From Bacteriovoracia bacterium (GTDB lineage: Bacteria; Bdellovibrionota; Bacteriovoracia; Bacteriovoracales; Bacteriovoracaceae), in assembly GCA_030431635.1 (NCBI GenBank), contig JAUIIL010000001.1:62001-126000 (forward strand): 64,000 bases of DNA, written 5' to 3'. The notes under the pieces are model-generated. The model did not search any database. It saw only the letters and a program-made list of their open reading frames with translations, and had not been told where the DNA came from. Positions 960-52,349 of the stretch are shown here, piece by piece (within the stretch, counting starts at the first letter, position 1; each line of letters starts with the position of its first letter). The translations under genes were made by a program, and so were the position numbers.

Positions 960-979
960 GTGTCTAAAACTTTAACAGA
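960..979. promoter_or_regulatory. Third copy of the activator-site-like palindrome
   Basis: Read on the minus strand this stretch is CTGTTAAAGTTTTAGACAC. It matches the palindrome at 41377-41397 in 16 of 19 positions and the one at 34525-34545 in 14 of 19. It lies between the divergent transglycosylase and the 406-residue secreted protein gene. No convincing GG-N10-GC element follows at the 67-68 bp distance seen at the other two sites, so its function is uncertain. Confidence 0.4.
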
Positions 980-29378: not shown

Positions 29379-32300
29379 TTACTTGAAAAGTTTATTACAA
29401 ACAGAGAAAATGTCGTTTGTTCTTTTGTAAATGAGTTCCCGGCGTACATACTTCGATATAGTTTTCTCTATAAAAATTTTATCAAGATTTTGAGCATATT
29501 TTTCGTTAGTTAAATAGAGAAAACCTTTGAATATTCCCATTGAGTACAAACGAGGCAAATGCAATTGATGTTCAGTGATACTTGCTAAAATTTCTTGGAA
29601 AAGTTCTTTGTTTTCTAAATTTGAGTCTAGAATTTTCTTGAAGCTTAGGCTTAAGGTGTTCAACGTATATTCGCTAATTTCATTTTTATTTTTTGAGATA
29701 TGAGCAAAAACTTTTGCCAAATGAACTGCAGCATTTTTATCGCTTCTTCCTTTTGTGAGATGGTAAATAATTTGGGCAAATGGATTAATATCACCTAGAG
29801 AAAAGAACGAACTCTTTTTTAGCTCGTACACTTGGCCAAAGTCTATAGCATGAATTTCTTTTGTTTTTGGATTAAAAAGAAAATTCCCTAAGTGCCTATC
29901 GGAGTCAAATATACCCTTTTTAAACATTAGTTCAATTTCAATTTTAAAAATAAATTCTGACACAATTTTTTTATCATCGTCCGCAAGTTTTTCAAAAGGG
30001 ACCGTGTCTCTAATATCTTGAAAAATTAAAAGTCCTTCTCTTTGCTTTTTTCCAGATGACGGTTTAGCTGGTTTTATAATCCAGCCTTTGTAAGATGGAG
30101 TTTGTTCATAGTAAGGTGCAATTGTATTACTAAGCTTGAGTTCTCTTAAAAATGAAGCTTCATCTAGAGTTTGTTCTTCTAGCTCAAGTAAATACTCTGT
30201 ATAATTAACTTTCTCATTGTAATCTGGATGTTGCTGCAAATATCTTGTCCAACTTTTAAGAATATTGATAGTCGATTTAATGGATTCAACAAGATATTCT
30301 TTTTTTATATAAAGAGCATCAGTTGAACCATCTTTCCAGTGACAAATAACAACGTGCTTAATTCCTCCTGAACCTGAGAGCTTTTCAAGATAGTCAATAT
30401 GATTATATTCTTCTGATGGTAGGATTCGTTCAAGATAATTATAAATTTCAAGCATTGTAGCAGGAGATGAACTATTTTTTGCTTTCGCTAGGTCTGTGTT
30501 TGTTCCAAATAAGGCCAAAATGTCAGCAAGTTGGGCCCCTTTAATGCCTATTGGACCGTGGGCCTCGGCCATTTGTAATAATCGAGATTTTTCTCCATTT
30601 AGCTGAGTTGAGATTGGGTTATTTGCGAGAAGAAAAGAGAGCAAGATCGAGTGCTCATATTTATTCAGGCTTTGGGTATAACCCTGAAACCTAATAATGT
30701 CATTTTTACTTTCGATACCTGCAAGGGAATAGAGCTTGTTAGTAATATGCTCACCTTGGTAAAAAAGTCCATAAGGTTGAGAACCTACAATTGCTTCAAT
30801 TAAGGCCAACTTTTGTAGGGCGCTTGCATCGTTAATATGAGATTCCAAAACTCCCAAAAGCTTGTCTGATTTATCAATTATTTTTTTCATGTAAAGATTA
30901 ACAAGGCCATTATTTAAATTTGATGAATCATATTTAGGAAATATTGAGTATAGTTCTCCATTAGGGTTCTGAATATAAGCTACTAATTTTATTTTTTGTT
31001 CGTTGGATAGGACTTTTATTAACTGACTTATAGCGGAGAGTGCATTCATCGTGTAGAGGTCAATTTTTTTATAGTTAAAACTTTTTAATGGAAGGATGTA
31101 TTTTATATTTTGCTCTTTACTCAGATGAAGTTTCCAAGCAATTTCATTTTCTAAGAAATTATCTAAAAAAACGGATGCCCTGGGAATTATTCTTTCAATC
31201 TTGCGAAATAATTTAAAAAGATGAGCATCTGTTAAATTATTTACTTGAGACAGTTGTTCTATCTCACTCTTGAAATATTCTTGTGCAAGTAAGACTCTTA
31301 CTTTCTCTGAAGCTGTTCTTTCATTTTCAAGAGTGTCTTTAATGAACTGAAAAGAAAGTTTTTTCGTATCAATAGAACCTGATTTCTCATCGGTAGCAAT
31401 TTTGTTTATATATTCAATCAGTAATCGATCTGTAAAACTTGTGACTCTTTTTCCACTTAAAATATTCCATATTTCTATAATCTCTTCTGGTGATAAATTT
31501 TCAACTGGTATAATCTTCATTACTTCGAATTGAATTTGGTCTAGACCATTGTAAGAAATATTATCGTTGTAACGATAAGGGATAACGTAGTCATCGGGAT
31601 TAAAGATGGATTTTAAATAACTCAGAAGAGTTTCTTTATGGGCCCTGAATTGTTCGAGATAGGCATTGGTATGGATTAGTTCTCTTTGTAGGCCAATCTC
31701 TTTTTCAATGTCTGAAATAAGTTTATAACGAATTTTTTTAAAGAATGTAATATAGCCGCTGTGATAACGGAATTGATCATAATTATACATATTAAGAATT
31801 AATCGAACTTTGTCCTGAAGATTCATGTTTTGCCGAGAGAGTCCTTCCCATACGTTGTTCAATATTTGAGACGGTATTGTTGTATAGTCCAAATCATTAA
31901 CTATAGTTCCATCGCTTCCCAAACGAAAAATTTGACTTCCTTTTTCATTTTTGATTTTAAGCTCTTTCAAAATCTCAGGAAAAAACTTCTTAAAACTTTC
32001 GTCGTTTTCAATCTTTTTAAAGTAGAATTTAAGTAATAAATTCAAGTTTGTTTGAGGCACATAATCTCTAATCTTTCTTGGATGTGACCATATTGCCATT
32101 TTACGTTCATAGATAATATCCATGAATTTCATTTTGGTTTTTTCATCAAAATATTCACCGATCTGGTTAAATAAAAACTGCTCAAGTGCGATAAATTCAC
32201 TATCATTTTTTAATAATTCAAAATTTTCATTAAAAAATAGTTCCTGAATAATGTCTTTTTTTAATTCTCTCCCTAATGGTGAACTTGAACCAATAAGCTG

Positions 32301-34262
32301 GCCAATCAATTTCCCATGTTTGGCCGTAATCTCATGGAAGAAATGCTGTTTCCATTGCAAAACATTTTTAATCCTTGCTCCTTCTTTCTTGTAGATCATA
32401 TCAGAGACAAGACTCTTCATTTGTTGGTTTAAGAGATTGTCTCTTAAAAAATCTTCTAATTTTTCAAGGTTCTCTTTAGGCAGTTGAGAGATCTTCCTGG
32501 GGAATACTTCAGGAGAAAAGTGCCAATTGACAATATTAAGCAGTTTCAAAAAATCTTCAATATCATTAAATCTCTCACTTAAATAAACAAAAGGAGTAGA
32601 AAGTTCTCTCATAATAATAGAGGTATACATTTCAAATAGGTAATTGGCCTTTTTAGGATTGTCTTTTGCATATCTTTTATATCGTTCATTGATAAATTGA
32701 TAATCTTTGTTTTTTAAAAAGAAAGAAAAAATATCAATATTAAGTGTCGTATCAGCTCCTTCAAAAAAAAGACCTTTTTGATAGGTTTCCAACGCTTCAA
32801 TTTCGTCATTAACATTTGTTTTGGAACGATACAAAGTCTCAAGATAATTTAAACAATGTCTTAAATAAGTTTCTTGAGATTGAGGATAGTCGAACTTGCC
32901 ATTAACGAATACTTTGTTAAAATAATCGCTCAATTCAACTTTATATAGCTCTCTGTATTTTATGAGGAGGTTTTCATCGAACAGACTTGAAAACTTATCT
33001 AATTTTTTAAACACACTTGAATTAAGAGTAAGTTTTGGCGATGAAGCGTCTTGAAGTTCTTTAGGTTTTATATTTTCTAAAACCCATTGTTTAGAAAAAT
33101 CCTTGATAGATTGAGGAAATGATTCCCAGTCTTGAAAACGCTTCCTTGTTAAATAGTTTAATGTAGGTTCATCCTTCTTAAAGTTTGATACATTGGAGCT
33201 ATTTTCTGATGTGATTAACTCAAGCAGCTCTTTGTATTTGTTGATAGCTTGAACTTGATCTTCAACTTTTGCCTTAGACATTAAAGAAACATAAGCGGAT
33301 AATTCTTTGTTTGATATGCTTGGGTTCTTTAAACTTTGAATCATAAACTTAGCAACCTCTGAAAAATTTAAGGTGCCACTGCTTTTCCCTAGTACTACAA
33401 GTAATTGTTTCTCAAGTTCATTAATATGATAAAGAATGCTGAGGTTCTTAATCATCTCGTTTGTATGAAATGAAATAGATTCTACTTCATATGTGCCTCT
33501 TTTGACCCTATCATAAGCAAGAACACCTCGCGCTAAGTTAATGGTCATTGCTTCATCTGGAGTTGAACCTATAATACTATTAAGAACACCTGGGTTTCCT
33601 CCAATACTCAGTTCACGAGCATGTAGCAGTGAAGAGTTATTGAGCTTTGCATCTCTGAGGATTTCATGCGCTAAGATATCTGATGCAACAACGTCAAGCT
33701 GTCCATTACTTACGTCGGATGATATTTCCTGGCTTGCTCGAAGTTGCCATTTCACAATTTCGTCTTCTTTCGGACTTGCAAAATTGTGAGCGATAGTTCC
33801 TTGAATTGCCTCTAGCACAAATTCCACTTGCTCCATACTTGCTTCTTGAGGGAGGACTTGTTGAGATTTGAAAAATTTTTTAATGAGTCCAGTATTTATA
33901 AAAACGTGTCCTACGAAAAAATTGCGATCAGGAGGTCTATATTTGTAAAGAAAGGACTCAGCCTCGTCATCGACAAGATAATAAACTTTGTAAGAAGGGG
34001 TTTGAAATCCAATTTTTGATGCAGATATTGTCAGTCTACTGACAAGTTGTTCAGTCCATAGTTTGAGTTCACTAAGTCCAGGGGATTCTAGATCTAAAAT
34101 ATGCTTGTGTTTGAAAATACTATCTAATTCTTTTATTTCTTTTTTTGTTAAATCTTCAAAAAGCTGAGCTTCTGACATGAAACGAATATCTTTGAACAAG
34201 GGATCACTGGCAAGAGCCGTACAATTTATTAACAAAAGAAGAAGAAATAGCCTCATATTCAT
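29379..34262 (-). CDS. Giant exported protein with M48-like N-terminus and UbiB/ADCK-like kinase end, 1627 aa
   Basis: The signal peptide (MNMRLFLLLLLINCTALAS) sends the protein out of the cytoplasm. Around residues 115-200 the text VFINTGLIKKF, then GTIAHNFAS and QLDVVASDILAHE, follows the order of an M48 metallopeptidase, but HExxH is degraded. Most of the protein is helical. Near the end, residues about 1239-1480 have the order of an atypical UbiB/ADCK kinase: GIKGAQLADIL (KxGQ-like), LSGSGGIKHVVICHW, YIKKEYL with a candidate ATP Lys, DSDRHLGNFLF (D.HxGN) and IDFGQVYEL (DFG). These assignments come from motif order and are inferences. ATP-dependent kinases are rare outside the cytoplasm, so either the substrate is unusual or the domain no longer acts as a kinase. 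It is divergent from the island's first unit. Confidence 0.7.
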   Translation of the reverse strand: MNMRLFLLLLLINCTALASDPLFKDIRFMSEAQLFEDLTKKEIKELDSIFKHKHILDLESPGLSELKLWTEQLVSRLTISASKIGFQTPSYKVYYLVDDEAESFLYKYRPPDRNFFVGHVFINTGLIKKFFKSQQVLPQEASMEQVEFVLEAIQGTIAHNFASPKEDEIVKWQLRASQEISSDVSNGQLDVVASDILAHEILRDAKLNNSSLLHARELSIGGNPGVLNSIIGSTPDEAMTINLARGVLAYDRVKRGTYEVESISFHTNEMIKNLSILYHINELEKQLLVVLGKSSGTLNFSEVAKFMIQSLKNPSISNKELSAYVSLMSKAKVEDQVQAINKYKELLELITSENSSNVSNFKKDEPTLNYLTRKRFQDWESFPQSIKDFSKQWVLENIKPKELQDASSPKLTLNSSVFKKLDKFSSLFDENLLIKYRELYKVELSDYFNKVFVNGKFDYPQSQETYLRHCLNYLETLYRSKTNVNDEIEALETYQKGLFFEGADTTLNIDIFSFFLKNKDYQFINERYKRYAKDNPKKANYLFEMYTSIIMRELSTPFVYLSERFNDIEDFLKLLNIVNWHFSPEVFPRKISQLPKENLEKLEDFLRDNLLNQQMKSLVSDMIYKKEGARIKNVLQWKQHFFHEITAKHGKLIGQLIGSSSPLGRELKKDIIQELFFNENFELLKNDSEFIALEQFLFNQIGEYFDEKTKMKFMDIIYERKMAIWSHPRKIRDYVPQTNLNLLLKFYFKKIENDESFKKFFPEILKELKIKNEKGSQIFRLGSDGTIVNDLDYTTIPSQILNNVWEGLSRQNMNLQDKVRLILNMYNYDQFRYHSGYITFFKKIRYKLISDIEKEIGLQRELIHTNAYLEQFRAHKETLLSYLKSIFNPDDYVIPYRYNDNISYNGLDQIQFEVMKIIPVENLSPEEIIEIWNILSGKRVTSFTDRLLIEYINKIATDEKSGSIDTKKLSFQFIKDTLENERTASEKVRVLLAQEYFKSEIEQLSQVNNLTDAHLFKLFRKIERIIPRASVFLDNFLENEIAWKLHLSKEQNIKYILPLKSFNYKKIDLYTMNALSAISQLIKVLSNEQKIKLVAYIQNPNGELYSIFPKYDSSNLNNGLVNLYMKKIIDKSDKLLGVLESHINDASALQKLALIEAIVGSQPYGLFYQGEHITNKLYSLAGIESKNDIIRFQGYTQSLNKYEHSILLSFLLANNPISTQLNGEKSRLLQMAEAHGPIGIKGAQLADILALFGTNTDLAKAKNSSSPATMLEIYNYLERILPSEEYNHIDYLEKLSGSGGIKHVVICHWKDGSTDALYIKKEYLVESIKSTINILKSWTRYLQQHPDYNEKVNYTEYLLELEEQTLDEASFLRELKLSNTIAPYYEQTPSYKGWIIKPAKPSSGKKQREGLLIFQDIRDTVPFEKLADDDKKIVSEFIFKIEIELMFKKGIFDSDRHLGNFLFNPKTKEIHAIDFGQVYELKKSSFFSLGDINPFAQIIYHLTKGRSDKNAAVHLAKVFAHISKNKNEISEYTLNTLSLSFKKILDSNLENKELFQEILASITEHQLHLPRLYSMGIFKGFLYLTNEKYAQNLDKIFIEKTISKYVRRELIYKRTNDIFSVCNKLFK

Positions 34263-34524
34263 AGCTTGTAGATAGCAAATACTTCACAAACATACAACGC
34301 AATGAGTCTTCTATGTATAATTTGTTTCCTCATAATTTTTTCATTGTTTAGGAAATAATAAAGACACGTAACTGCCTAATAATATTGAATTTATTATGGA
34401 GAACCCCAGCTAAGGGTGAGAATGATGAATGAACCGGGAATTACTGTGACTTGATTTCTGGTTCTGATTCAGATTCAGATTCAGAAAATTAAGAGCTTAA
34501 CCTTTTTTGTTAAAGGGGGATGGC

Positions 34525-34545
34525 CCTGTTTAAACTTTAAACAGT
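34525..34545. promoter_or_regulatory. Palindromic activator-site candidate (copy A)
   Basis: CTGTTTAAA and TTTAAACAG face each other around one C, a 9-bp inverted repeat. Its centre lies 67 bp upstream of the GG of the sigma-54 element at 34600-34616. The copy at 41377-41397 matches in 15 of 21 positions and has almost the same spacing, which fits an enhancer site for a sigma-54 activator. Confidence 0.55.
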
Positions 34546-34628: not shown

Positions 34629-35822
34629 ATGAATATTCGTCGATTTATCTGTTTACTCCTAATCTTGGTTTTCTCCCTGGAAAGTTCCATTGCTTGTTCA
34701 GAGCAAACCAAAGAGTTTGTTACCGAGTATGAGAAGAGCTTGGTAGAGACATTTGAAGTTCTTAAAGAGAATAATTATTCTTTTACAGCCGAAATTAATG
34801 AAGACTTTATCGAAAAAGCAGTGATTATAAGTATAGCTAGTATTGCAATAGGTGGAATAAGTTTTTATGTAAAAAAACTTAGAGATAAAAGAGCTGCAAA
34901 TTTAAAAACAAATAAGGGTTGGGAAAAATATAGTATAGGAATAAGTAACTACGCTCAAGATTGGATGAATATAGAAAAAGGAAATAGGACCTTAAGTGAA
35001 GAAACAAGAAAACTGTATTATTCATTAATTAACTTATCTCCTGAAATGAAAGAGAAAGCAGAGGATATTGCAAAGAAATACTATAAAGCAGCTTTTGAGC
35101 ACAATATCTCCCAAAATATAATTGAAAATGGCGATTCTAAAAATGAATTAACTAAATATAGAAAAGGAATCAAGGGAGAACTTAAAGAAGTAGCCCAAGG
35201 ATTTTTAAAAGAAAAGAAAGAGATTGTAGACTCTCTACATGCCATTTTATCAAATCCTCAAAATAAGGAAGTCATCACTCAACTAGGAATTCCTCTTGAA
35301 ACTCATTTTACAAAAATTCAAGAAATGCAAAAAACATTAAATAATGTCGACTTCCTATCAGTTGAGAACTCTTCAAAACTAAAAAATACAATTGATGAAA
35401 TACAATTTTTAGAGAAAGCTCTCTTACACATTAAACCGAAGGCAGGTGGGACTCAGCTTGGACGAATCTTGAAAAAAGGAAGTAGTAAGGTATTACTGGC
35501 ATTAACAGGTGCAACTGTTCTTATAACGGCTAATAGTGCTAAGGCGATGGCCAAAGAAGGAAGTGAAGAGAATAGTCTAGAATATAACCTCATTAATAAT
35601 GCTGAAAGGTATTACTCACTAGATGAGGATTCCAGATGTTCTTTCTTAGAAAGTAATCCTGATTTTTACTCTCAAAAAGTCATAGAGAAAAGCCAAATGG
35701 ATGATTATCTTGTCTTTTTTCAAAAGAGTTATCCTCAAACAGAAGTAAGTAATTTTCAAGAAAATAAGAAAGAAAAAACATTTAAACAGGTATTTGGAAA
35801 GAGCAAGGGAGAGGAGTTATGA
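34629..35822 (+). CDS. Two-Cys exported coiled-coil family, member 1, 397 aa
   Basis: The signal peptide ends IACSEQ with Cys23. A hydrophobic segment at 64-81 (AVIISIASIAIGGISFYV) precedes a charged helical region to about 285. A second hydrophobic segment (288-303, VLLALTGATVLITANS), Cys337 (SRCSFLESN) and a C-terminal FKQVF (385-389) follow. If the signal is cleaved, both Cys face the periplasm and the helical part lies in the cytoplasm, or the reverse if it is retained. It is the first of five paralogues, and the gene has a sigma-54 element and an activator site upstream. No ribosome binding site is visible. The function is unknown. Confidence 0.8.
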   Translation: MNIRRFICLLLILVFSLESSIACSEQTKEFVTEYEKSLVETFEVLKENNYSFTAEINEDFIEKAVIISIASIAIGGISFYVKKLRDKRAANLKTNKGWEKYSIGISNYAQDWMNIEKGNRTLSEETRKLYYSLINLSPEMKEKAEDIAKKYYKAAFEHNISQNIIENGDSKNELTKYRKGIKGELKEVAQGFLKEKKEIVDSLHAILSNPQNKEVITQLGIPLETHFTKIQEMQKTLNNVDFLSVENSSKLKNTIDEIQFLEKALLHIKPKAGGTQLGRILKKGSSKVLLALTGATVLITANSAKAMAKEGSEENSLEYNLINNAERYYSLDEDSRCSFLESNPDFYSQKVIEKSQMDDYLVFFQKSYPQTEVSNFQENKKEKTFKQVFGKSKGEEL

Positions 35823-36961
35823 AAAAAGTTTTAATATTGTGTTTAGTTTTCTCTATAACGACTCAATCTGTTTTGGCTTGCCCTAGTTTTATTCTAGAGA
35901 AAGTAAAAAATCATGAAAAACAATTAGAAAAATTAAGCACAAGAGAGAATTTACTAGATTTTTTGGAAGATAATCTTCTTTTAACTTCAGTAGGCTTGAC
36001 CTTGTTTGGAACAGTGAGTGTTTATTTGCTCTATAGAGACTTTGATTTACGGTTAAAAAGAAATATTGAGGAGTTAAAAGTTGGTCTAGCTAAACTAGAG
36101 GCCAAGTTGATAGAGGAAAGGAATATTGTGAAAAGAAGCGTGGATGAGCTTATAAAAACAGATGATGATTTTGCTGAAATATATAAATTTGCGAATGAAC
36201 TAAATCCAAATGTTATTGATGATATTAGAAAAAAGATAAGTTTAGAGCATTTAAAGGAAGGCAGAGGACAAAAACTTCTAAAAGAGAGTGTTCGAGAAAA
36301 TATGCTTGCAAGTCTAGATCAAAGAAAAAAGTCTCTTGAGTATTTTTCGGAATTTACTGATGAAGCCAGGAAAATAAAACTTTTAGAAGGATTGAGTGGA
36401 TTCAAGATAGAGGAAATTCATAAAAAAGTAGTGGACTCAAAAGAGCTACTTGGCCGCTTCACATATGATATGGAAGATTTAAGTCTTATTGAAATTTATA
36501 AGAAAAATATGAATGAAATTAACGGTGACATGGCCAGAATTCAATGGGCCTTATCTGAAGCACGTATCATAAATCTTGTAGCTGAGCATTTCAAAAAAAG
36601 TCAAGCAGAGTCAATAAGAAAAACTCTTAAAAATGCGACCAAAAAGTGGGGGAAGAGGGCCATCAAATTTTTACCTCTAACAGCTTTAATGCTGACAGGT
36701 GACTCTGCTGTGAAAGAATTTAAAAAAGAAGAAGAGAGCTATGATGTTTATGCAGGTCTAGATACACCAAATGCTAAGTACCTCTCTCTTTCTCTTCCAG
36801 CGAAATGTAGTGCTGCTTCAGAGAATAAAAAACTGCTTGAGAATATAGAGGATCAAATAGCTCTTATGAGTGATTTTGTAAGTATTGAAGAAATAAGTGA
36901 TGAAGCACCTCCTTCACAAGGCTTTAAAAAGGTATTTCAAGGAGGAACAAGTGGGATATAG
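35819..36961 (+). CDS. Two-Cys exported coiled-coil family, member 2, 380 aa
   Basis: The ATG overlaps the stop of member 1 (ATGA). The signal peptide ends SVLACPSF with Cys21. Hydrophobic segments lie at 53-72 (LLLTSVGLTLFGTVSVYLL) and a short one at about 283-293 (IKFLPLTALML); between them is a lysine/glutamate-rich helical region. Cys330 (AKCSAAS) and FKKVF at 369-373 complete the family pattern. The Cys-to-motif spacing here is 39 residues against 48 in the other four members. Function unknown. Confidence 0.8.
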   Translation: MKKVLILCLVFSITTQSVLACPSFILEKVKNHEKQLEKLSTRENLLDFLEDNLLLTSVGLTLFGTVSVYLLYRDFDLRLKRNIEELKVGLAKLEAKLIEERNIVKRSVDELIKTDDDFAEIYKFANELNPNVIDDIRKKISLEHLKEGRGQKLLKESVRENMLASLDQRKKSLEYFSEFTDEARKIKLLEGLSGFKIEEIHKKVVDSKELLGRFTYDMEDLSLIEIYKKNMNEINGDMARIQWALSEARIINLVAEHFKKSQAESIRKTLKNATKKWGKRAIKFLPLTALMLTGDSAVKEFKKEEESYDVYAGLDTPNAKYLSLSLPAKCSAASENKKLLENIEDQIALMSDFVSIEEISDEAPPSQGFKKVFQGGTSGI

Positions 36962-38189
36962 ATTCTTCTCTCTACTACTTTTATTTGTGACGACAATAAA
37001 TGCTTATGCATGTCCCATGGCCTTGAGAGAACTGATTGAGGATACTCAGAAAAACGCATCATTTATTTCAGAAGATTCTGCTCTCGTTGAGGCCCTTAAT
37101 TCAAGGAAGGCCAAAATGTTTGCTGTCGGAGTTGGCGTTAAAATTACTTATGAATTACATAAGAGATCGATGAATAAGGATTATCAGAAAGTGTTGCAAA
37201 AAAGCTTTTTGTTTAAGGATCTAGAACTTAAAGCACTTATTAAAGAAGCTGGAAAATTAGATTCTCAAATAGAAAATAAAATAGCTAAAATGAATTTTGA
37301 TTTTGAGTTAAAGCTTGATGAAATTTTTGAACATGAAACCAATGGCTATGTGAGACAGGGGCCGGATGCTTTAAGAGCGAACGCGACTGAGTTTGAGAAA
37401 GATTTTTATCAAAGAAAATTAAGTGAATTAAGTGAAGAGAAGCAAAGGATTAAGTGGAGTGAGACGTTAGAAAAAGAGCAGACAGCTTTTAAAAGCGAAG
37501 TGGAGAAAGTTTTAAGAGAGGAAGTTAAGCTCTCTCTTAATGCTCGAATGAAAACACTTGAGCAGCAACTAAATAATGATGTTGTTACTTATCTTACAAA
37601 ACTAGATACTCATGATAAAAATTACTTAAAGCAAAAGCCTTTGTATCAAGAGTTTGAAAATGATGTGAAAAAAATGAAAAATCTTCACTCTCAAATAAAT
37701 ACAGCGGGAGAGTTTTCTGAAATAACGAAAAAACTCACCAAAATAAATACGACTTTTGATAATTTAGTTCTTAACAAGTTTAGAACTCTTAAAATTCAAT
37801 TTGCTCTTAAATATGGTTTTAATCGAAGTTCTTCAGTCATAGGCAAGGGAGCAAAAGTTTTAGGAAAAGTGATGCCAACTGCAACTTTTCTTCTCATTCT
37901 TAGAGATATTATCAATGAATATCAGCTCTCAGAGTCTTCTAGCTCAATTGAAAATAAGTATAAAGATGATGAGTTATCTCTCTTTCTTTCAGATCTCTCT
38001 AACGAAGCCATTTGTCAGTATTTGCTAGATAACAAAAACTCAGTTGAACACTTAAAAGAAGTAAACGCTGAATTTGTTGAGGCCATTACTATTAATAGCG
38101 CTGTTGGCTCAAGTATTGTTGATCAAAGGGAAGAAAAAAGTACAGATAATCAATCACTTAAAACTATTTTTGGAGCAAAAGGGATATAA
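36951..38189 (+). CDS. Two-Cys exported coiled-coil family, member 3, 412 aa
   Basis: The start is set at the GTG at 36951: GGAGG lies five bases upstream and the product then begins with a proper signal peptide, MGYRFFSLLLLFVTTINAYAC (Cys21). An ATG at 36897 is in frame but sits inside member 2 and adds an amphipathic leader that would spoil export. The first hydrophobic segment (about 56-66) is weak; the second is at 307-320 (VMPTATFLLILRDI). Cys355 (EAICQYL) and LKTIF at 403-407 follow, exactly 48 residues apart. It overlaps member 2 by 11 bases. Confidence 0.8.
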   Translation: MGYRFFSLLLLFVTTINAYACPMALRELIEDTQKNASFISEDSALVEALNSRKAKMFAVGVGVKITYELHKRSMNKDYQKVLQKSFLFKDLELKALIKEAGKLDSQIENKIAKMNFDFELKLDEIFEHETNGYVRQGPDALRANATEFEKDFYQRKLSELSEEKQRIKWSETLEKEQTAFKSEVEKVLREEVKLSLNARMKTLEQQLNNDVVTYLTKLDTHDKNYLKQKPLYQEFENDVKKMKNLHSQINTAGEFSEITKKLTKINTTFDNLVLNKFRTLKIQFALKYGFNRSSSVIGKGAKVLGKVMPTATFLLILRDIINEYQLSESSSSIENKYKDDELSLFLSDLSNEAICQYLLDNKNSVEHLKEVNAEFVEAITINSAVGSSIVDQREEKSTDNQSLKTIFGAKGI

Positions 38190-38267
38190 AGGAAGAAAGC
38201 CCGATCACCAAGCTCAGCTATCTTGTTCTTATTTATCAAATTCTATCAATAATCCGATAAATTCTTG

Positions 38268-40100
38268 ATGAAGATTATTGTTTTTACAGTCTTTTTAACT
38301 TTTATTGGGCATGGGCCATCAGCCCTTGCTGCAGATGGAAATCAAAAACCTAAAACGGGTAGGGCCAGATTAAAGTGCATGATGAGAAGGGCCATTGCTG
38401 AAGCTGCAGTAGAGTCGAGACAATACGCTGGAAGTTGGTGGGAGCACAAGTGGCTCGGGGGAAGAGTTCCAAGTTATATTGGTCGCTTCTTTGTGAAAAA
38501 GTATAGACCTTGGAAAAAGCCTGAAATGAAGCTATCAGGACTTTTTGTCAAGAACGAAGTCAGTAGTATTCAAAAAAGTTTGGAAAAAGGTAAAGTCCCA
38601 AAAGAGTGGAAGCTAGATCTCATTAGATTTAACGATGAGTTTTTTTATAAAAGACCTGCAAGATTCATCTCCAATCACTTGTACTCTGGTGTGAGAGGAG
38701 CAGATAGACAGATATATGAAACCACAATTGCTGGAGACATTGCAGTGGGTGGCTTTATTTACTTTCCACTGACCCTCTATGGCGCCAAACAATTAGGAAC
38801 ACTCGTTGGAAAAAATGAGAATAAAAAGAAAGAAAGAGAGGCCCTGACGAGATTTCAATACGATCCTCTTTTTGAAGACTTGGCCTTTGAGTATGAGTAT
38901 TTAGAAGAGTTTGATGATGATCTGGCAATTAAGAGTTCTGCTTTAATAAAGCAAATTGAGAAATACCGAAAGATGGATATTTATCAAAAAGTTGATGAAT
39001 ATAATCTTAGGCTTAAAAAGTATGAAGAAGAAGAAAAGTCAGGAGAACTCAATAGAGAGAAAGAGTTTTTACTCTATTATGAAAAGCAAGAAGAAGAGTA
39101 TAAGCAAAATGTGGCTTTAAGAAATCAACTCATTAAGAAAAACGCTGATAAGTTTTTACTTGAGAAGGTAAAAATTTATCAAATAGATGATGAGTTTATT
39201 AATTTTATAAAAGTGAATTTGAGAGAGTCAGAACTTGAGTTTGCTCTTAGTAAAATGAAGGAAGCGAGAGATGCTTATAGTAAAGTCTACTCAATTTTAA
39301 TTTCAGAAACGGTTGATTTTTCTCAAGAAGGATTTGAAAAATTAAACCATAAGCATAGTAGTGTTGTCTTTCAAGATAGTGTTGATTTTGAAGGACTAGT
39401 TCTCAAAAGACCTTTGCCTGAAAAGTACTCAAATCCAGAAAAAAAAGAAGTTGTTCAGATGGATTCAAATATAGAAATCAACAAAACCCTGGATGAACTT
39501 AATTTTGAAATTGATAATTTTAGAAAATATAGAGAATTGATGCAAAGTAAATATTTTGAAGTCGATGAAAAGATGAATGCAATGGAGAAAGACTGGATTT
39601 TAAATGATGATGAACTGGTCGAAGTAAAAAATTTGGGCATTTTTGATGTTGATTATCTTTTAAGACTTGGAAGTGAAGGGTTAACAGAAGAAGAGAAAAA
39701 AAATTATCAAGTTGCAAATACAGAGAAAAAAATATCAGTGAATGAATTTCTCAAAATTGTCGATCAAAGCCTAAGAAACTTTTCTAGAAATCAAGAGATG
39801 ACTGATTTTTTTATCAATGAAATGGATAATCCAACAGCTAGCCAGTATGGAACTTTTAGAGATGAAGAAGCTCTACAAAGAATAAAAAGAAATCCTTTTC
39901 ATCACAAGATCCTCTCAGCTTATGAGAGTACAAAACTAACAGCAAAAGAAGCAATCGCTCTAATTCAACTAGAACAGCATATGTCACTACAATTTTATAT
40001 TCAACAAGATATCATGCGAATGCAACACAAAGATGAGAGTTCTCCTTATTATAGTTTAGAGAATTTTCAGAAATTTTTAATTCAAGAGTATTCCTTATAG
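38268..40100 (+). CDS. Exported helical protein with acidic/basic coiled-coil, 610 aa
   Basis: The ATG at 38268 gives a signal peptide (MKIIVFTVFLTFIGHGPSALA); a TTG three bases earlier is also possible. Cys is present shortly after (RLKCMMRRAI). A hydrophobic segment at about residues 155-175 (DIAVGGFIYFPLTLYGAKQLG) is followed by a long charged helical region rich in Glu, Lys and Tyr, with likely coiled coils from about 200 to 320. It lacks the C-terminal Cys and [FL][KR]x[VI]F motif of its neighbours. It lies in the same orientation between family member 3 and the HEGLH gene. No family is recognised. Confidence 0.75.
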   Translation: MKIIVFTVFLTFIGHGPSALAADGNQKPKTGRARLKCMMRRAIAEAAVESRQYAGSWWEHKWLGGRVPSYIGRFFVKKYRPWKKPEMKLSGLFVKNEVSSIQKSLEKGKVPKEWKLDLIRFNDEFFYKRPARFISNHLYSGVRGADRQIYETTIAGDIAVGGFIYFPLTLYGAKQLGTLVGKNENKKKEREALTRFQYDPLFEDLAFEYEYLEEFDDDLAIKSSALIKQIEKYRKMDIYQKVDEYNLRLKKYEEEEKSGELNREKEFLLYYEKQEEEYKQNVALRNQLIKKNADKFLLEKVKIYQIDDEFINFIKVNLRESELEFALSKMKEARDAYSKVYSILISETVDFSQEGFEKLNHKHSSVVFQDSVDFEGLVLKRPLPEKYSNPEKKEVVQMDSNIEINKTLDELNFEIDNFRKYRELMQSKYFEVDEKMNAMEKDWILNDDELVEVKNLGIFDVDYLLRLGSEGLTEEEKKNYQVANTEKKISVNEFLKIVDQSLRNFSRNQEMTDFFINEMDNPTASQYGTFRDEEALQRIKRNPFHHKILSAYESTKLTAKEAIALIQLEQHMSLQFYIQQDIMRMQHKDESSPYYSLENFQKFLIQEYSL

Positions 40101-40250
40101 CTACTATCCACTGTGACGTGGTTTTGGCCCAGGGACATAAATTTGGCTATCTTATAGACACTTTTGTAAATGTGGGCAAATAAAACAAAAAAATCAGCAT
40201 AAAATTTATAGAAATGACATAATCTAATCCATATTTTTAGAGGTTGTTTT

Positions 40251-41375
40251 ATGAAATATTTAATTTTATATATTTGTGTTTTTAGTTCAGCTTACTCCCA
40301 AAGTCTTGATGAGCTAATAAAACAGGCCCAAAGTGGAAAATTAGTATCTTCATCATCTATAAGTATCAGAACTTCGAATGGAGTTAAGACAGTAACTGTA
40401 AAAAAAGATGGTCAAGTAGTTAAAGTATTTAGAAAAAAATCAGATTTTACTCAAGAAGATATCGAAAAATACCCTTCTGGCTATGAAGCTTTCGGAGGAG
40501 TGAATGAAGCTAAAGAAAAAAGAGTTCAAGAAGCCATTGACTCATTAAATGCTTATGATCCCAATGGTCTTGATGTTTATAACTCTCTAAAGAAGAAAGA
40601 TACTTTTGTCTTTTTTCTTGGAGATAATAATGATTTGAGTACTGCAGTTCATGAAGGTTTGCATTCTCTGGATCTTGAGTTAAGAGTAGGTAACCAAGCA
40701 GCATTTAAACTTGTTGATGGTGACTTTATTTCAATGCCAATTAAGCAAACTTATCTAAGGAAAGTTGTTTATGACTCTATGTTAGATGAAAAGGAGAAAG
40801 AAGATACCTATGCTCAAATTTACTTAACAGGATCGAGCGGAGCCCAAGGTATTCATATGCTTTTAGAAGAGCTAAATGCTTATGCTCATGGAAACACAAC
40901 AACCCTAAGGTTATCTGAGGGAAATAAAAGTAACAGCTATTTTAATGTTGGATTGTCTCGTATGATGTACTACACACTACTTTATTTAAAATTTAACAAA
41001 CAAAAACAATCAAACACTTGGAAGTTTATGAAAAGTGATAAAGACTTCAAAAACGTCTTATTATCTCTATGGAGACAAGCAGAAGAGGTTGTAGGAAAAA
41101 GCTGTCTTTCAGATTTTGTTAGAATTGATACTACTGATCTTAATAAAATATATACTGATGAAAATATCTTATTTCTCTCTGATTACTTTGATGGAGAAGA
41201 AGTTTTTGACTATGTAAAAGAGTGTCAGATTGATTATGCTGAAACCCTTGATGCTATTAATCTTGATCTTAATAAAGGTATTCAAAGCTTACCAGACAGC
41301 TTGAATCTGAATAGAGAAGTCCCCCAACCTCTAGATTCTATGAATAAAATAAAGTCATCAGGATCTATTAGGTAA
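40251..41375 (+). CDS. Exported metallopeptidase-like protein with HEGLH motif, 374 aa
   Basis: The signal peptide is MKYLILYICVFSSAYS and AGAGG precedes the ATG. Residues 134-138 read HEGLH in a helix-like context (STAVHEGLHSLDLELR), the HExxH zinc-binding pattern of gluzincin/metzincin proteases. A Glu 68-69 residues later (MLLEELNAYAHG, E206-E207) fits a third metal ligand, as in gluzincins. The rest is not matched to a named peptidase family. A metallopeptidase role is inferred from the motif only. It lies within the exported-protein island; the 150 bases upstream hold no clear promoter. Confidence 0.72.
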   Translation: MKYLILYICVFSSAYSQSLDELIKQAQSGKLVSSSSISIRTSNGVKTVTVKKDGQVVKVFRKKSDFTQEDIEKYPSGYEAFGGVNEAKEKRVQEAIDSLNAYDPNGLDVYNSLKKKDTFVFFLGDNNDLSTAVHEGLHSLDLELRVGNQAAFKLVDGDFISMPIKQTYLRKVVYDSMLDEKEKEDTYAQIYLTGSSGAQGIHMLLEELNAYAHGNTTTLRLSEGNKSNSYFNVGLSRMMYYTLLYLKFNKQKQSNTWKFMKSDKDFKNVLLSLWRQAEEVVGKSCLSDFVRIDTTDLNKIYTDENILFLSDYFDGEEVFDYVKECQIDYAETLDAINLDLNKGIQSLPDSLNLNREVPQPLDSMNKIKSSGSIR

Positions 41376-41376
41376 A

Positions 41377-41397
41377 ACTGTCAAATCTTTAGACACT
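41377..41397. promoter_or_regulatory. Palindromic activator-site candidate (copy B)
   Basis: The sequence CTGTCAAATCTTTAGACAC is an imperfect palindrome matching copy A (34525-34545) in 15 of 21 positions. Its aligned centre lies 68 bp before the GG of the promoter at 41453-41469; the same distance at copy A is 67 bp. Confidence 0.55.
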
Positions 41398-41452
41398 ACC
41401 CAATTAATTGACACCTTCATGAAGCTAACCTGCTGAAATAATAGCAATTAAG

Positions 41453-41469
41453 TTGGCTCTATCTTTGCT
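41453..41469 (+). promoter_or_regulatory. Sigma-54 promoter of the 325-aa gene unit
   Basis: TTGGCTCT-ATCT-TTGCT keeps GG-N10-GC, the TTGGC block and a perfect -12 block. The predicted start is near 41480, giving a 27-base leader with TAGGAG before the ATG at 41507. Confidence 0.65.
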
Positions 41470-41506
41470 CCTTATATTTTAGTTAGAAATAAAAATAGGA
41501 GTCTTT

Positions 41507-42484
41507 ATGAAACTAGTATTTGTTTTAGGTTTAATGAGTTCTTTTCTTATGGCCCAAGAAGCTTATGAAACACCAAGTGGGCATATGAATTGGGATGATT
41601 CATTTGTTGAGGTCAAAAGGGCACCCGAGCTAATTCGTCCTAGAGGATTAGAGGTTACAGCGGTTTCTCCAAAATTAGAGAAAAAAGTCATTAAATCAAT
41701 CAATGGTGGTTTTAATCCTGATAAGCTCAGAGTTGCTTTTGTTGAAAATGGCTATATCGCTATTCAAGAACTAGATTCCGAAGGTAAACGTGTTTCAAAA
41801 ATGTACTCTAAAGTACAAGACGGAGTTGATAAAGAAGAATTAAAAAAGAATTTAAATGATATTATCATGTCAGCAAGTCTAGAGAGAAAAGGGATTGATC
41901 TTGCTGTCGAAGATATAACTTCTTTGCAAGAAGCTTTAAAAAATAAAGACGAATCTGCTCTAGAAGAGTTGAAGTCTCAGAAAAAATTCAGACAATCTCG
42001 TATTGATATGAGTGAGCTAGATTTAGTTCAAAAAATTCAAGAAGAAATGCCAGAGAACCCATATGTTCAGACCATGGCCAGCGTGTCCCAAAAACTTTTG
42101 AAAGCTTCTCATGATAAGCAGAAGCAGTATGATGAGTTAGTAAAAGAGCACAAAGAAGAAGTTGCTGCCTTAGATAAAGAAAAGAAGAAATGGAAAAGTT
42201 GGTATTACAAGCTTGATGATTACTCAAAAAGACTAAAGAAGCGCATGGAAGTGGTATTAAATGAAACAATACCTAATCTTAACAATACGATTAAAGAGTG
42301 TAGTCTTGAAAAAGCAGAAAAGGCCAACACTATCAATGAGCAAAAAAGCACAATTGCTGACTTAGAGTCACAAATCCACATTTATCAAACTCAATGGGTA
42401 GACCCAGCAACATTTAATAACAGAAAGCAAAGGGCCATCAAAAGATGGGTTGAAAAAAGAGATATCGCTACGAGTGAGAAATAA
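41507..42484 (+). CDS. Exported coiled-coil protein, 325 aa
   Basis: The signal peptide is MKLVFVLGLMSSFLMA. Residues about 65-115 look like a small folded domain (LRVAFVENGYIAIQEL, DSEGKRVSKMYSKV). From about 190 to the end the sequence is a long charged coiled coil (YDELVKEHKEEVAALDKEKK and later EKANTINEQKSTIADLESQI). It is the first gene of a unit with its own sigma-54 promoter and activator site, and the next family gene begins three bases after its stop. It lacks the two-Cys pattern. A structural or tethering role is possible but unproven. Confidence 0.78.
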   Translation: MKLVFVLGLMSSFLMAQEAYETPSGHMNWDDSFVEVKRAPELIRPRGLEVTAVSPKLEKKVIKSINGGFNPDKLRVAFVENGYIAIQELDSEGKRVSKMYSKVQDGVDKEELKKNLNDIIMSASLERKGIDLAVEDITSLQEALKNKDESALEELKSQKKFRQSRIDMSELDLVQKIQEEMPENPYVQTMASVSQKLLKASHDKQKQYDELVKEHKEEVAALDKEKKKWKSWYYKLDDYSKRLKKRMEVVLNETIPNLNNTIKECSLEKAEKANTINEQKSTIADLESQIHIYQTQWVDPATFNNRKQRAIKRWVEKRDIATSEK

Positions 42485-42487
42485 GTA

Positions 42488-43822
42488 ATGAAAAAAATTC
42501 TCTGCTCTGTCTTAATAGCTTCTTTTATGTCTCAATCATGGGCATGCCACCTCTCGACACAAGAGAAGCTTGATTCTTTTTATACTTCTATCGAACTAAC
42601 TCAAGAGAGTTTTTTTAACACGAAGACTGCTGATTCTGGAAATCCAGCTCGCCTGGTAGCTCTTTCCTTAATTGCAGGCTATGCTGTTAATAAACTTTTG
42701 AGAAAAAAAAGACGTGAAGGAAGAGATCTCAGAGCACTTGAGGCCTTGGAAGAATTTTCTGATGAAACACAACGCTTATATAACCTTTCTTGGAGCTACT
42801 CAGATAATGTAAAAGAGATAACTCATCCAACAAACTTTATTCTGGCTAAAAAAGATTTAATGAAGGAAGAGTTGGCCCAAGCTCGCAATGAATTAAATAA
42901 AATAGAATTACAGGTGAGATCTTTTGAGAGTTTGAAAGAGTTTGGAAGTGAGGAAGGGCTAAAGAAACTTGAGGAAGAATTAGGCAAAAATCAGGATGAG
43001 CTCTTAGCGGAATCACAAGCGTTGAAAAATAAATTTGAAGCTCAATCAAGGCAAATTAAACAAAAGTATGAGAGTGAGTTTATTCAAAATTTTAAAACTC
43101 AATTAGATGATGGACTTAGAAAAAGATCTCTTTACTTTGATAACTATGAAAATGCTTTAAGAAATATGGCCAAGAGTTCTTCAGAAGAAAAAATGAAGAT
43201 ATTAAACCAACTTGCAGATGAGATGGGGCAAGCTTCAAAAAGCATTAAAACACTCAATAGTTCAATCGGTGCTAAAAGTTCAGAGCTTTTTGAGTATGCT
43301 GAAAAAGCAGATAAACTTATTAAAAAAGCAGTTGAGTCAGTTCACTCAACAAAAGGAAAAAATTCTTTATTTAAACTTCTTAATAATGAAATAGCCTCAA
43401 TTTCCAATAGTAGGGCAATGGGGTTTAAGCCTGAATTTCCTGGAAGAGGAAAACAGATTCTTAATAAAGCAGGTCGTTTATTAAGAAAAACTGCAGTTGT
43501 TGGAGTTTTATCTCTTGCTGCTTTTGATATTAAAGCTGCAGTACAAGAGGGAGCTGAATCTACTAATGTTTTTACTTCCTATAACGAAGAAAGTCGTTTG
43601 GCCTTCTTCACCCAGTCAAGAGAGGCCCAGTGTTTACTTTTAGAGGAAAATGAAGAGTTTGCGGAAGGTCTTCTTGTAGATGAAAAATCTTTTTATGATG
43701 AATATAATTTAGATTATAGTTTAGCTTTAGAAGATATTCATATTGATGATTCCCTTAAAGAGCAACCTCCTCGTTTGAAAGATGTTTTTAAAAAACAACT
43801 TGATGGGGGAGAACAAAGATAG
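42488..43822 (+). CDS. Two-Cys exported coiled-coil family, member 4, 444 aa
   Basis: The signal peptide ends SWACHLS with Cys20. A hydrophobic segment at 55-70 (ARLVALSLIAGYAVNKL) is followed by a long helical region (about 75-330), a second hydrophobic segment at 335-348 (TAVVGVLSLAAFDI), Cys382 (EAQCLLLEEN) and LKDVF at 430-434, exactly 48 residues after that Cys. It is three bases after the coiled-coil gene and nine before member 5, in one apparent operon. The function is unknown. Confidence 0.82.
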   Translation: MKKILCSVLIASFMSQSWACHLSTQEKLDSFYTSIELTQESFFNTKTADSGNPARLVALSLIAGYAVNKLLRKKRREGRDLRALEALEEFSDETQRLYNLSWSYSDNVKEITHPTNFILAKKDLMKEELAQARNELNKIELQVRSFESLKEFGSEEGLKKLEEELGKNQDELLAESQALKNKFEAQSRQIKQKYESEFIQNFKTQLDDGLRKRSLYFDNYENALRNMAKSSSEEKMKILNQLADEMGQASKSIKTLNSSIGAKSSELFEYAEKADKLIKKAVESVHSTKGKNSLFKLLNNEIASISNSRAMGFKPEFPGRGKQILNKAGRLLRKTAVVGVLSLAAFDIKAAVQEGAESTNVFTSYNEESRLAFFTQSREAQCLLLEENEEFAEGLLVDEKSFYDEYNLDYSLALEDIHIDDSLKEQPPRLKDVFKKQLDGGEQR

Positions 43823-43831
43823 AGGGTTGTT

Positions 43832-45118
43832 GTGTTGTTAAAGTTCTTGTTTATCTATACTCTTGTCTTCCTCTCTTTAATGCCGCTTAGAGCGCAGACT
43901 TGCTCTAAAGAGCAAGAGCATCTTATTCAATCTCTCTCTCAAAATATTTACTTCATCCAAAACCATCCGGAGGTAGTTGCCAGTGTAGGAAGTCCACTGG
44001 TTTTAATTGAAATTTTACAACTTGCCACATCAGAGAGAGGAAGCTTTGGGCCTGCGATGACACTAATGCGGAGAAACCAGATAAGGCAGCGAGCTCCCTA
44101 TTTTATGAGTAGTCGAGTTTTAATTGAAAAGCTTAGACCTCCGTTAGAATTCTCTCAACATTTAGGAGTTGAAAACCTCTTCGATGAACTCTCACTTGAC
44201 TACTATAACGAAATTCAACGCTTATCTCGAAAATATAAGAAGAAATTATATCCCTTAGAACCTCTTAAAGGTCAAAAGGAGATGAATATTTATATGGAAG
44301 AGATGAAGAGCTATCTCACTCAGTATAAAGAAGTCGAAGCCTTCAAACAAACTGAAGCTTATCAAAAAGAGTTAAGAAAGATTGAGCAAGATTTCTCTGA
44401 AAAAGCTTTAGAAAAAATTACCGCTAGGATTGAAAAAAGAATTAATGGAAGAATCAAAATTTTAGATGCCTTGCAATCTCAATTTAAGACAGAGCAAGCA
44501 CGCAAAGAACTTCTCCTAAGTGGAATTGATTTAGATAATTTATTAAAAAGAATAGTGGATTTGAAAAAAACTTATCAAGAAGTACTTTCAAAAAACGCCG
44601 AGAAGTCTGTTCTTCATACAATAAGTGCAGAAGGATTTAATAATTTAAGTAGTAAACTTACTTTTCAAGTTAATGAATTTAATGACTTTATTGGTGAGAT
44701 AAAATTAAAGAATACTCCTCATATAGAAATGGAAGAAATAAAGGTTACGAGTAAAATGGGTACTTTAAAAAAGATTTTATCAACTCTTGCGGTGGGAACG
44801 ATGCTTCTAAGTGTTCCTCAGTTAGCTAAGGCCTTCGAAGATGGAGAGAAAAAAAACAAGATAGGGCAGTACTACAAAGAAAGACCTTATGAATTAATGG
44901 GAGCTTTAAGCGAAGAATCTTTATGTTATCTTTTTTCAGAAGTCACCGAAGTTCAAAAAGCAGTAGAAGAAAAAAATAACAAGCTTAATGAGATTGTAGG
45001 ATTATTTGAAGAAAATCAGCTTAGTACAAATTCTCAAGTCTATGAAGGAACAGCTTCTAAAAATACTTTAAGAGATGTATTTAAAGAAGATAAGGCCACA
45101 AAAGTGAAAGGCAATTAA
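43832..45118 (+). CDS. Two-Cys exported coiled-coil family, member 5, 428 aa
   Basis: It starts with a GTG at 43832, nine bases after member 4, with AGAGGG before it. The signal peptide ends LRAQTCSKEQ with Cys24. Hydrophobic segments are at 48-65 (VVASVGSPLVLIEILQLA) and 317-330 (STLAVGTMLLSVPQ); Cys365 (ESLCYLFSE) lies 48 residues before LRDVF (413-417). The region between the segments is highly charged and helical. Its stop overlaps the convergent crotonase gene by four bases. The function is unknown. Confidence 0.82.
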   Translation: MLLKFLFIYTLVFLSLMPLRAQTCSKEQEHLIQSLSQNIYFIQNHPEVVASVGSPLVLIEILQLATSERGSFGPAMTLMRRNQIRQRAPYFMSSRVLIEKLRPPLEFSQHLGVENLFDELSLDYYNEIQRLSRKYKKKLYPLEPLKGQKEMNIYMEEMKSYLTQYKEVEAFKQTEAYQKELRKIEQDFSEKALEKITARIEKRINGRIKILDALQSQFKTEQARKELLLSGIDLDNLLKRIVDLKKTYQEVLSKNAEKSVLHTISAEGFNNLSSKLTFQVNEFNDFIGEIKLKNTPHIEMEEIKVTSKMGTLKKILSTLAVGTMLLSVPQLAKAFEDGEKKNKIGQYYKERPYELMGALSEESLCYLFSEVTEVQKAVEEKNNKLNEIVGLFEENQLSTNSQVYEGTASKNTLRDVFKEDKATKVKGN

Positions 45119-50845: not shown

Positions 50846-52222
50846 TTAATCTTCAAATGTTATTTTTTCTAGCTCTTCAATTCGCTTTTTAAGCTTTTCT
50901 GCAAAGTTACTATATTGATTATAACGACTTGCAACTATGGAATCTCTATGAAGACGACTAACAAAGGTTGGCGTAGGAGCTCCTTTTAAAACATAATCAT
51001 TTAGTTTTTTTAGTTGTGCTAAAGTTAAGATATCAAAGATGTCAGTATCAAAATATATGTTATTAATATTTTTACCACTTTGTGGGTCAAAAGGTTTTAA
51101 AATATAATCTTTATGAACTGGGTGATTTAATAAAGCAAATTTCTCTTCAGCTTTAAAGAGAGGTTCACCTTTACCTTCTAGAAAACCTGAAATATTAAAT
51201 TTAGTATCTTGAACCAAAAGAGTGATAAAGCGCGCTGGAACTAGAGCTGCACCAGAAACTGCAGTCGCAACCAAAATAGAAGTTGCTTGAGAAGTCCCAG
51301 AAATAAGCAAAGTATCGTAGAGGTATGTAAAGATTTTTACAATACCAAATAGACTTGTACCAGCAACCGTGTATGTTGGCCCATAATAATTCATGAGCTC
51401 TACTAGCCTTAAGTTCAGATGGTGCTTTTTTAACCAAAAAAGGAATGCATTAAACTTTAAAGAAGAAACATATTCTTCATTATTAGCAAGCTTAGTTTTG
51501 TCAATCTTTCCTTTATATTTTTTATAGACGTTTTCTAATAGATGATAAGGCTTAAGACTTAATCTCCTCGCAAGTGAATTTTCTATTTCTTTCGCATTTT
51601 CAATTGATCTCATTTTGATATTTTGATCGATCAAAGTAATAATACCGTCTTCATAATTTTTTAACTTATGTTTTGTATTTTCTAGATATAAAGCATAAGA
51701 CTTTGCTTGCCATTTATTCTTTATATCCCAATATTTTTTAAAATCATGGAGCTTATCTTTTTCAAAATTCAAAATGACGTTATCAAGCTCAATTTTCATA
51801 TAATGAAAAAGTCGTTCTTCAAATTTCAATAAATCTTCTTTGCTGAAACTCTTAATGAAATCAGAAAAATTAGTGGGAGTTTTAGATATATTATCCATTG
51901 AAGCAGAGATAGCTTTTTCTAAAAAACTATCTGAGTTAACGAAAGCTGCAAAATAAACAGATGCTTCAATTTCTTTACTTACTTGTGGAGGAATTTCAGT
52001 TAGGCCGTTCTCGTCTTTGTATTTTTTCTTGAGTTTAGCAATTATTTGAGTATTTACTTCATCAATTTTTTTTAAAACACTGTCACTATACTCCTCAAAA
52101 CTCATTCCTTTTTTTATGGGGGGAAATTGGTTAGCTGTATCAAAGCTTGTGCAAAGATCATTGGCTTGAGTTTGAGATAGAAGAAAAAGAAAGCCTAAGA
52201 CAGTTAAGAAAGTTTTGTACAT
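50846..52222 (-). CDS. Exported membrane-associated helical protein, 458 aa
   Basis: The start at 52222 has GGAG upstream and gives the signal peptide MYKTFLTVLGFLFLLSQTQA with Cys soon after (NDLCTSF). A helical, lysine-rich region follows; a hydrophobic pair at about residues 290-335 (GIVKIFTYLYDTLLISG and SILVATAVSGAALVPARF) would cross the membrane. The overall layout recalls the five-member family, but the late Cys and [FL][KR]x[VI]F end are absent. An in-frame ATG at 52234 adds four residues only. No family is recognised. Confidence 0.72.
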   Translation of the reverse strand: MYKTFLTVLGFLFLLSQTQANDLCTSFDTANQFPPIKKGMSFEEYSDSVLKKIDEVNTQIIAKLKKKYKDENGLTEIPPQVSKEIEASVYFAAFVNSDSFLEKAISASMDNISKTPTNFSDFIKSFSKEDLLKFEERLFHYMKIELDNVILNFEKDKLHDFKKYWDIKNKWQAKSYALYLENTKHKLKNYEDGIITLIDQNIKMRSIENAKEIENSLARRLSLKPYHLLENVYKKYKGKIDKTKLANNEEYVSSLKFNAFLFWLKKHHLNLRLVELMNYYGPTYTVAGTSLFGIVKIFTYLYDTLLISGTSQATSILVATAVSGAALVPARFITLLVQDTKFNISGFLEGKGEPLFKAEEKFALLNHPVHKDYILKPFDPQSGKNINNIYFDTDIFDILTLAQLKKLNDYVLKGAPTPTFVSRLHRDSIVASRYNQYSNFAEKLKKRIEELEKITFED

Positions 52223-52349
52223 GGTATACTCCAAAATATGTATTGAAAAATTATTGCAACGCTGTATTTCTGTAAATGAGTGATTGTCTTTACTGTAAAA
52301 ATTGTGTTATGCGTCTTACAAAACACGAAAGTTTTTCTGATTTTATCAT

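Follow-up and report, generated by a model that had tools for sequence, protein, structure and literature searches.

Methyl-accepting chemoreceptors (MCPs) combine two membrane-spanning segments with a long, charged cytoplasmic helical region. Multi-component alpha-pore-forming toxins of the Hbl, Nhe, Ahl and YaxAB type are exported, helical and encoded as two or three tandem paralogues, and spanins and other short membrane-anchored coiled coils are helical proteins in which disulfides are possible. Here, these systems are compared with a family of exported proteins encoded by five genes (A to E) in a stretch of 64,000 nt from a Bacteriovoracia bacterium (assembly GCA_030431635.1, contig JAUIIL010000001.1, positions 62,001 to 126,000 of the forward strand; this whole stretch is referred to as the window). 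A further group, the gluzincin-type HExxH metallopeptidases, resembles only a neighbouring gene product, H. A sequence-only reading of the window had proposed five family members in one island; we detected instead seven members in two islands of the same genome, joined by a common C-terminal domain.

A shared C-terminal domain

When the open reading frames were re-examined, the five genes lay where the sequence-only reading had placed them (Table 1). Their products followed the layout it had described, i.e. a signal peptide, a cysteine, two hydrophobic segments on either side of a long charged helical region, then another cysteine and a terminal [FL][KR]x[VI]F motif. The scarcity of plain sequence similarity was likewise evident: pairwise BLAST matches were weak (best for A-D, E = 0.004) and pairwise identity was about 15-25%. 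A profile of the five proteins detected a new tandem locus, F-G, on contig C4 of the same genome (E = 6.6 × 10−8). Both proteins share the layout, with a cysteine after the signal peptide, LSDEAKC, and a near-terminal FREVF or FKNIF. When 131 kb of this genome were scanned with the profile, all seven members reached 135-163 bits and the next frame 6.4.

For leave-one-out hidden Markov models (HMMs), the C-terminal domain was taken from 75 residues before the second cysteine (Cys2) to the protein end. All seven left-out domains were retrieved, with scores of 30.7-63.1 bits (E = 1 × 10−8 to 1 × 10−18), and the best decoy or windowed shuffle scored 14.3 bits. That the proteins share a C-terminal domain, as had been suggested, was thereby borne out; it comprises the second transmembrane segment (TM2), an LSxEAxC-like motif around Cys2 and the terminal [FL][KR]x[VI]F. 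On sequence grounds, homology is well supported for TM2 and the predicted periplasmic tail. Profile comparison detected no signal in the middle region and a weak one in the N-terminal region; the helical arm has either diverged past recognition or been replaced. No significant match was obtained in Pfam, NCBIfam, PHROGs, PADLOC or PDB, in agreement with the claim that the family is undescribed.

All seven members have exactly two cysteines in the mature chain, at the same places: Cys1 after the signal peptide and Cys2 30-37 residues past TM2. This pattern was absent from the non-members among 45 listed proteins with a signal-type N-terminus. Two details of the sequence-only reading need revision. 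The distance from Cys2 to the terminal motif had been given as 48 residues in four of the five proteins and 39 in the other, and exactly these values were measured (48, 39, 48, 48 and 48 for A to E), but the spacing fails as a fixed rule with F (51) and G (57). The label coiled-coil is too strong, because the arm, which is helical and charged, lacks clean heptads and displayed no consistent 3.5-residue peak.

Topology, gene organization and distribution

The charge flanks of the hydrophobic segments point to a consistent orientation. In all seven members, fewer Lys and Arg residues were found in the 15 residues before the first segment (TM1) than in the 15 after it; for TM2 the flank before was the richer one in six members, with a tie in E. 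Thus, the predicted cytoplasmic side was richer in Lys plus Arg for 13 of the 14 segments, and net charge was concordant for all 14. The positive-inside rule would then place the N- and C-terminal tails in the periplasm and the arm of 187-265 residues in the cytoplasm, with the signal peptide needed to bring the N-tail outside. Both cysteines are accordingly predicted on the same side of the membrane, as had been proposed from A to E. Because they would share one compartment, they could be joined by a disulfide, either in one chain or between chains, and a Cys1-Cys2 bond is plausible.

Within the sets A-B-C, K-D-E and F-G, the genes are closely packed. A and B, as well as F and G, overlap by ATGA, B and C overlap by 11 bp, and K-D and D-E are 3 and 9 bp apart. 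An identical 29-bp stretch precedes A and F, though the proteins of the two loci are only about 20% identical. Directly downstream of this stretch lies a palindrome (CTGTTTAAACTTTAAACAG before A, GTGTCTAAAGTTTTGACAC before F). With the consensus GTGTCTAAASTTTAGACAC, it is found upstream of all three transcription units that contain members (A, K-D-E and F-G), at a distance of 103-129 nt from the first start codon. With a threshold of 15 bits, nine sites were detected in 531 kb (16% of the genome) and none in the reversed sequence. All nine are intergenic, and in each case the gene that follows after 46-129 nt encodes a protein with a signal-type N-terminus. The first matrix had been built from five of them and did not include the other four. 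In the gaps before X and H, the best sites were weak. Judged by these positions, the palindrome looks like the operator of a putative exported-protein regulon.

The 3′ end and terminator of S23-type four-helix-bundle genes (L109:4781-5452 and L123 near 17181) recur upstream of A (window 34443-34519). Part of the 29-bp element may be a repeat relic rather than a control site, and because this part may derive from the S23-type terminator, the palindrome is the safer control element. We also considered a structured-RNA leader. The region upstream of A folded better than shuffles (z = −2.95), whereas that upstream of F did not (z = −0.92), and two compensatory pairs were present; a palindromic operator is preferred because it explains the same pairs. 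Rfam returned nothing at curated thresholds, and its weak matches look like chance. A sigma-28 promoter reading of TAAAGTTT was rejected, as no consistent −10 element was seen by eye at N11.

Homologues in other Bdellovibrionota, which the sequence-only reading had led one to expect, were not found. With full-length and C-domain profiles, matches were absent from all 128 other genomes sampled from the taxonomic family (48 genera in all), and in a 369-genome sample of the phylum the only matches were in the genome itself. Weak profile matches elsewhere (alaS-like, dnaX-like and other unrelated or fragmentary frames, those at minus-strand loci being read only roughly) look like chance. Searches with D as single query in 97 relatives, with a pattern of G in GTDB genome contigs, with F and H in viral contigs, and with G and H in plasmids and phages gave no match, nor did D, X, H or the family profile reveal a convincing counterpart of island 1 in relatives. 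Gene order around F-G differs from that in relatives: upstream of ffh, 13 of 14 relatives have a dusB homologue no more than about 3 kb away, mostly at less than 1 kb and usually with one HAD-like gene between. In the genome studied here the gap is 5.7 kb and holds genes for a 533-aa protein, a 104-aa protein, the protein with a JAMM-like motif (Table 1), F and G. Because relatives keep dusB and ffh close, island 2 is taken as a lineage-specific block, and A to E apparently lie in such a block as well. Direct repeats of at least 11 bp flanking the island ends were not detected.

A working model and its alternatives

We propose that the seven members are paralogous hairpin proteins of the inner membrane, restricted to one lineage, with coupled assembly and control from a shared site, a model to which, as a whole, we give an even chance. 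A Sec signal peptide would deliver the short N-terminal tail with Cys1 to the periplasm; TM1 would lead into the long, charged and variable helical arm in the cytoplasm; and TM2 would return the chain to the periplasm, where a C-terminal segment of 82-99 residues would carry Cys2 and end in [FL][KR]x[VI]F as a docking-type motif. A periplasmic disulfide probably ties both ends, either in one chain or between partners from adjacent genes. As A-B-C, D-E and F-G are translationally coupled or tightly spaced, hetero-oligomers appear most likely. The conserved module of TM2 and periplasmic tail would be the common part for assembly and docking, the diverged cytoplasmic arm the specific part, and the tail motif could dock a common periplasmic partner. 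Since the shared palindrome also precedes other genes for exported proteins, the family probably belongs to a secretome-type regulon, and it would be expressed with exported metallopeptidase-like neighbours. Such proteins might act as an envelope scaffold or in coupling across the membrane.

Several observations weigh against this model. The hydrophobicity of TM1 is low in C, and E shows only a weak charge bias. The AlphaFold model of G was poor (predicted local distance difference test, pLDDT, 46) and gave no fold match. As to subunit pairing, C-domain relationships beyond the F-G pair placed A nearest to F and B nearest to G, and the topology AF|BG was preferred in six of six tests; however, the preference was not significant (p of the approximately unbiased test 0.15-0.23 for the rival topology), so that two subunit types are only a lead.

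The short or weak TM1 of C and TM2 of B would fit a different arrangement, in which the segments do not both span the membrane and the protein is periplasmic or singly anchored, with its arm in the periplasm. The neighbours X and K, which are themselves exported helical proteins, would suit such a setting. The flanks, N-out/C-in for one segment and N-in/C-out for the other, are nevertheless consistent across the seven members, and we regard this arrangement as unlikely. Lipidation of Cys1, which would leave only Cys2 free or disulfide-bonded, was suggested by the cysteine directly after the predicted signal peptide in A to D. Yet E, F and G have T, I or V at position −1, and C and D have Tyr or Trp at position −2; the cysteine adjoins, or sits two residues past, a cleavage site of the AxA type, as used by signal peptidase I. 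The lipobox pattern [LVI][ASTVI][GAS]C does not describe the family, the residues found at −1 in E, F and G exclude general lipidation, and we consider lipoproteins very improbable.

Signal peptides, lengths of 370-445 aa, a mostly helical character, hydrophobic segments and tandem sets of two or three genes are also what would be expected of secreted multi-component factors that resemble alpha-pore-forming toxins and insert in the membrane of another cell, and the genome belongs to a family with predators. We infer that this is the predator-containing Halobacteriovorax/Bacteriovorax family. In ClyA-, Hbl- and Ahl-type toxins, however, the hydrophobic segments are located mid-protein; here they lie at both ends of the arm, with opposite positive-inside signatures. 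No profile match to any solved toxin was obtained, and AhlC appeared in the fold search only at E = 6.9, which, given the poor model, is weak evidence. Toxins of this kind are therefore rather improbable in our view. Convergence of unrelated proteins on one architecture would agree with the low identities and weak BLAST matches noted above, but it is refuted at the sequence level for the C-domain by the leave-one-out values and by the discovery of F and G with a profile of the other five, and we leave it next to no weight.

The hairpin model can be extended to a genus-level invention in a predator-containing family: diversifying double-spanning adaptors whose outside module is conserved and closed by a disulfide while their cytoplasmic arms change freely. 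They would be paired with exported metallopeptidases and placed under a common operator in a dedicated secretome regulon, e.g. at the prey interface. Taken as a whole, this extension is speculative and probably goes too far.

Neighbouring genes and known systems

The features of both islands are collected in Table 1. Gene C starts with GTG preceded by AGGAGG, and the genes of island 1 are slightly below most reference genes of the window in G+C content.

Table 1. Family members, neighbouring genes and upstream elements. Plain positions refer to the window; those with the prefix L034 refer to the locus of F and G.
Feature	Position	Strand	Remarks
29-bp non-coding element AAGAGCTTAACCTTTTTTGTTAAAGGGGG	34491..34519	+	identical copy upstream of F, L034:8772-8800
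Operator-like palindrome CTGTTTAAACTTTAAACAG	34526..34544	.	103 nt before gene A
Family member A, 397 aa	34629..35822	+	signal peptide, Cys23, TM1 65-79, helical loop, TM2 288-302, Cys337, FKQVF
Family member B, 380 aa	35819..36961	+	Cys21, Cys330, FKKVF; start overlaps A stop (ATGA)
Family member C, 412 aa	36951..38189	+	Cys21, Cys355, LKTIF; TM1 weak; overlaps B
X, 611-aa exported helical orphan	38265..40100	+	one mature Cys; not a family member
H, exported HEGLH metallopeptidase-like protein	40251..41375	+	
Operator-like palindrome CTGTCAAATCTTTAGACAC	41378..41396	.	129 nt before K
K, exported charged helical protein, 325 aa	41507..42484	+	first gene of unit K-D-E
Family member D, 444 aa	42488..43822	+	Cys20, Cys382, LKDVF; 3 bp after K
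Family member E, 428 aa	43832..45118	+	Cys24, Cys365, LRDVF; 9 bp after D
Exported 271-aa protein with JAMM-like HTHPHGGPLSIGD motif (by eye)	L034:7843-8658		adjoins F-G
Family member F	L034:8931-10046		profile match; same two Cys and motif
Family member G	L034:10043-11281		profile match; same two Cys and motif
Further palindrome site	960-978		others in L034, L108, L109, L122 and L123

Among the neighbours, H has a paralogue on contig C6 (42%; G000:C6, L035:227-1165) and a homologue in a contig of a Verrucomicrobiota metagenome-assembled genome (29%; L051:8073-9086). HEGLH/HESLH/HEGLH and a downstream EELNAY are invariant in these three sequences, and H is likely an exported metallopeptidase. 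X and K are exported orphans, and for X no convincing match was found in the sample of the taxonomic family. The protein with the JAMM-like motif was matched neither in Pfam nor in 58 further genomes of the family.

Further exported proteins were noted. A kinase-like domain of the ABC1 type (Pfam PF03109, 5.9 × 10−9) is present in an exported protein of 1627 aa encoded at window 29379-34262. This protein has paralogues of 1641 aa (G000:C3) and 2009 aa (G000:C1), and the motifs HEIAH and DRHSGNF...DFG also occur in a 1652-aa relative in G017; it is unusual for kinase-like proteins of such giant size to be exported. In three exported orphans (window 22814-23926 and 50846-52234, and L034:14964-16280), a cysteine follows the signal peptide and a single hydrophobic segment lies close to the C-terminus. 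Two of them have a cysteine past the hydrophobic segment, and none is similar in sequence to the family.

The seven proteins form a coherent and undescribed family of membrane proteins, which escapes ordinary pairwise searches. In two H. marinus genomes, 39-40% of proteins are unexplained (PMC5760749). If confirmed, the palindrome would allow an exported-protein regulon to be listed in a group with some 40% unexplained proteins, and the seven proteins would exemplify the rapid birth of a protein family in the bacterial envelope. The weight of the finding is tempered by how common orphan paralogue families are.

With regard to the known systems, H resembles the gluzincin-type HExxH metallopeptidases in its HE[GS]LH and downstream conserved EELNAY, held in common by three homologues including one from a distant bacterium, but differs in having no Pfam or PDB match and a negative fold search (model pLDDT 64). 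Compared with spanins, the family members are much longer, span the membrane twice and are not associated with phages, no significant PHROGs assignment being obtained. From the Hbl, Nhe, Ahl and YaxAB toxins they differ in the position and charge flanks of their hydrophobic segments and in their two conserved cysteines, and no sequence or fold match links the two groups. The likeness to MCPs lies in the paired membrane-spanning segments and the charged helical region; MCPsignal, the domain of the signalling tip, had no Pfam match in family members. In MCPs, the ligand domain lies between TM1 and TM2 and the helical arm follows TM2, whereas in the family described here it is the arm that separates the two segments, and the chain is predicted to have both of its ends in the periplasm.

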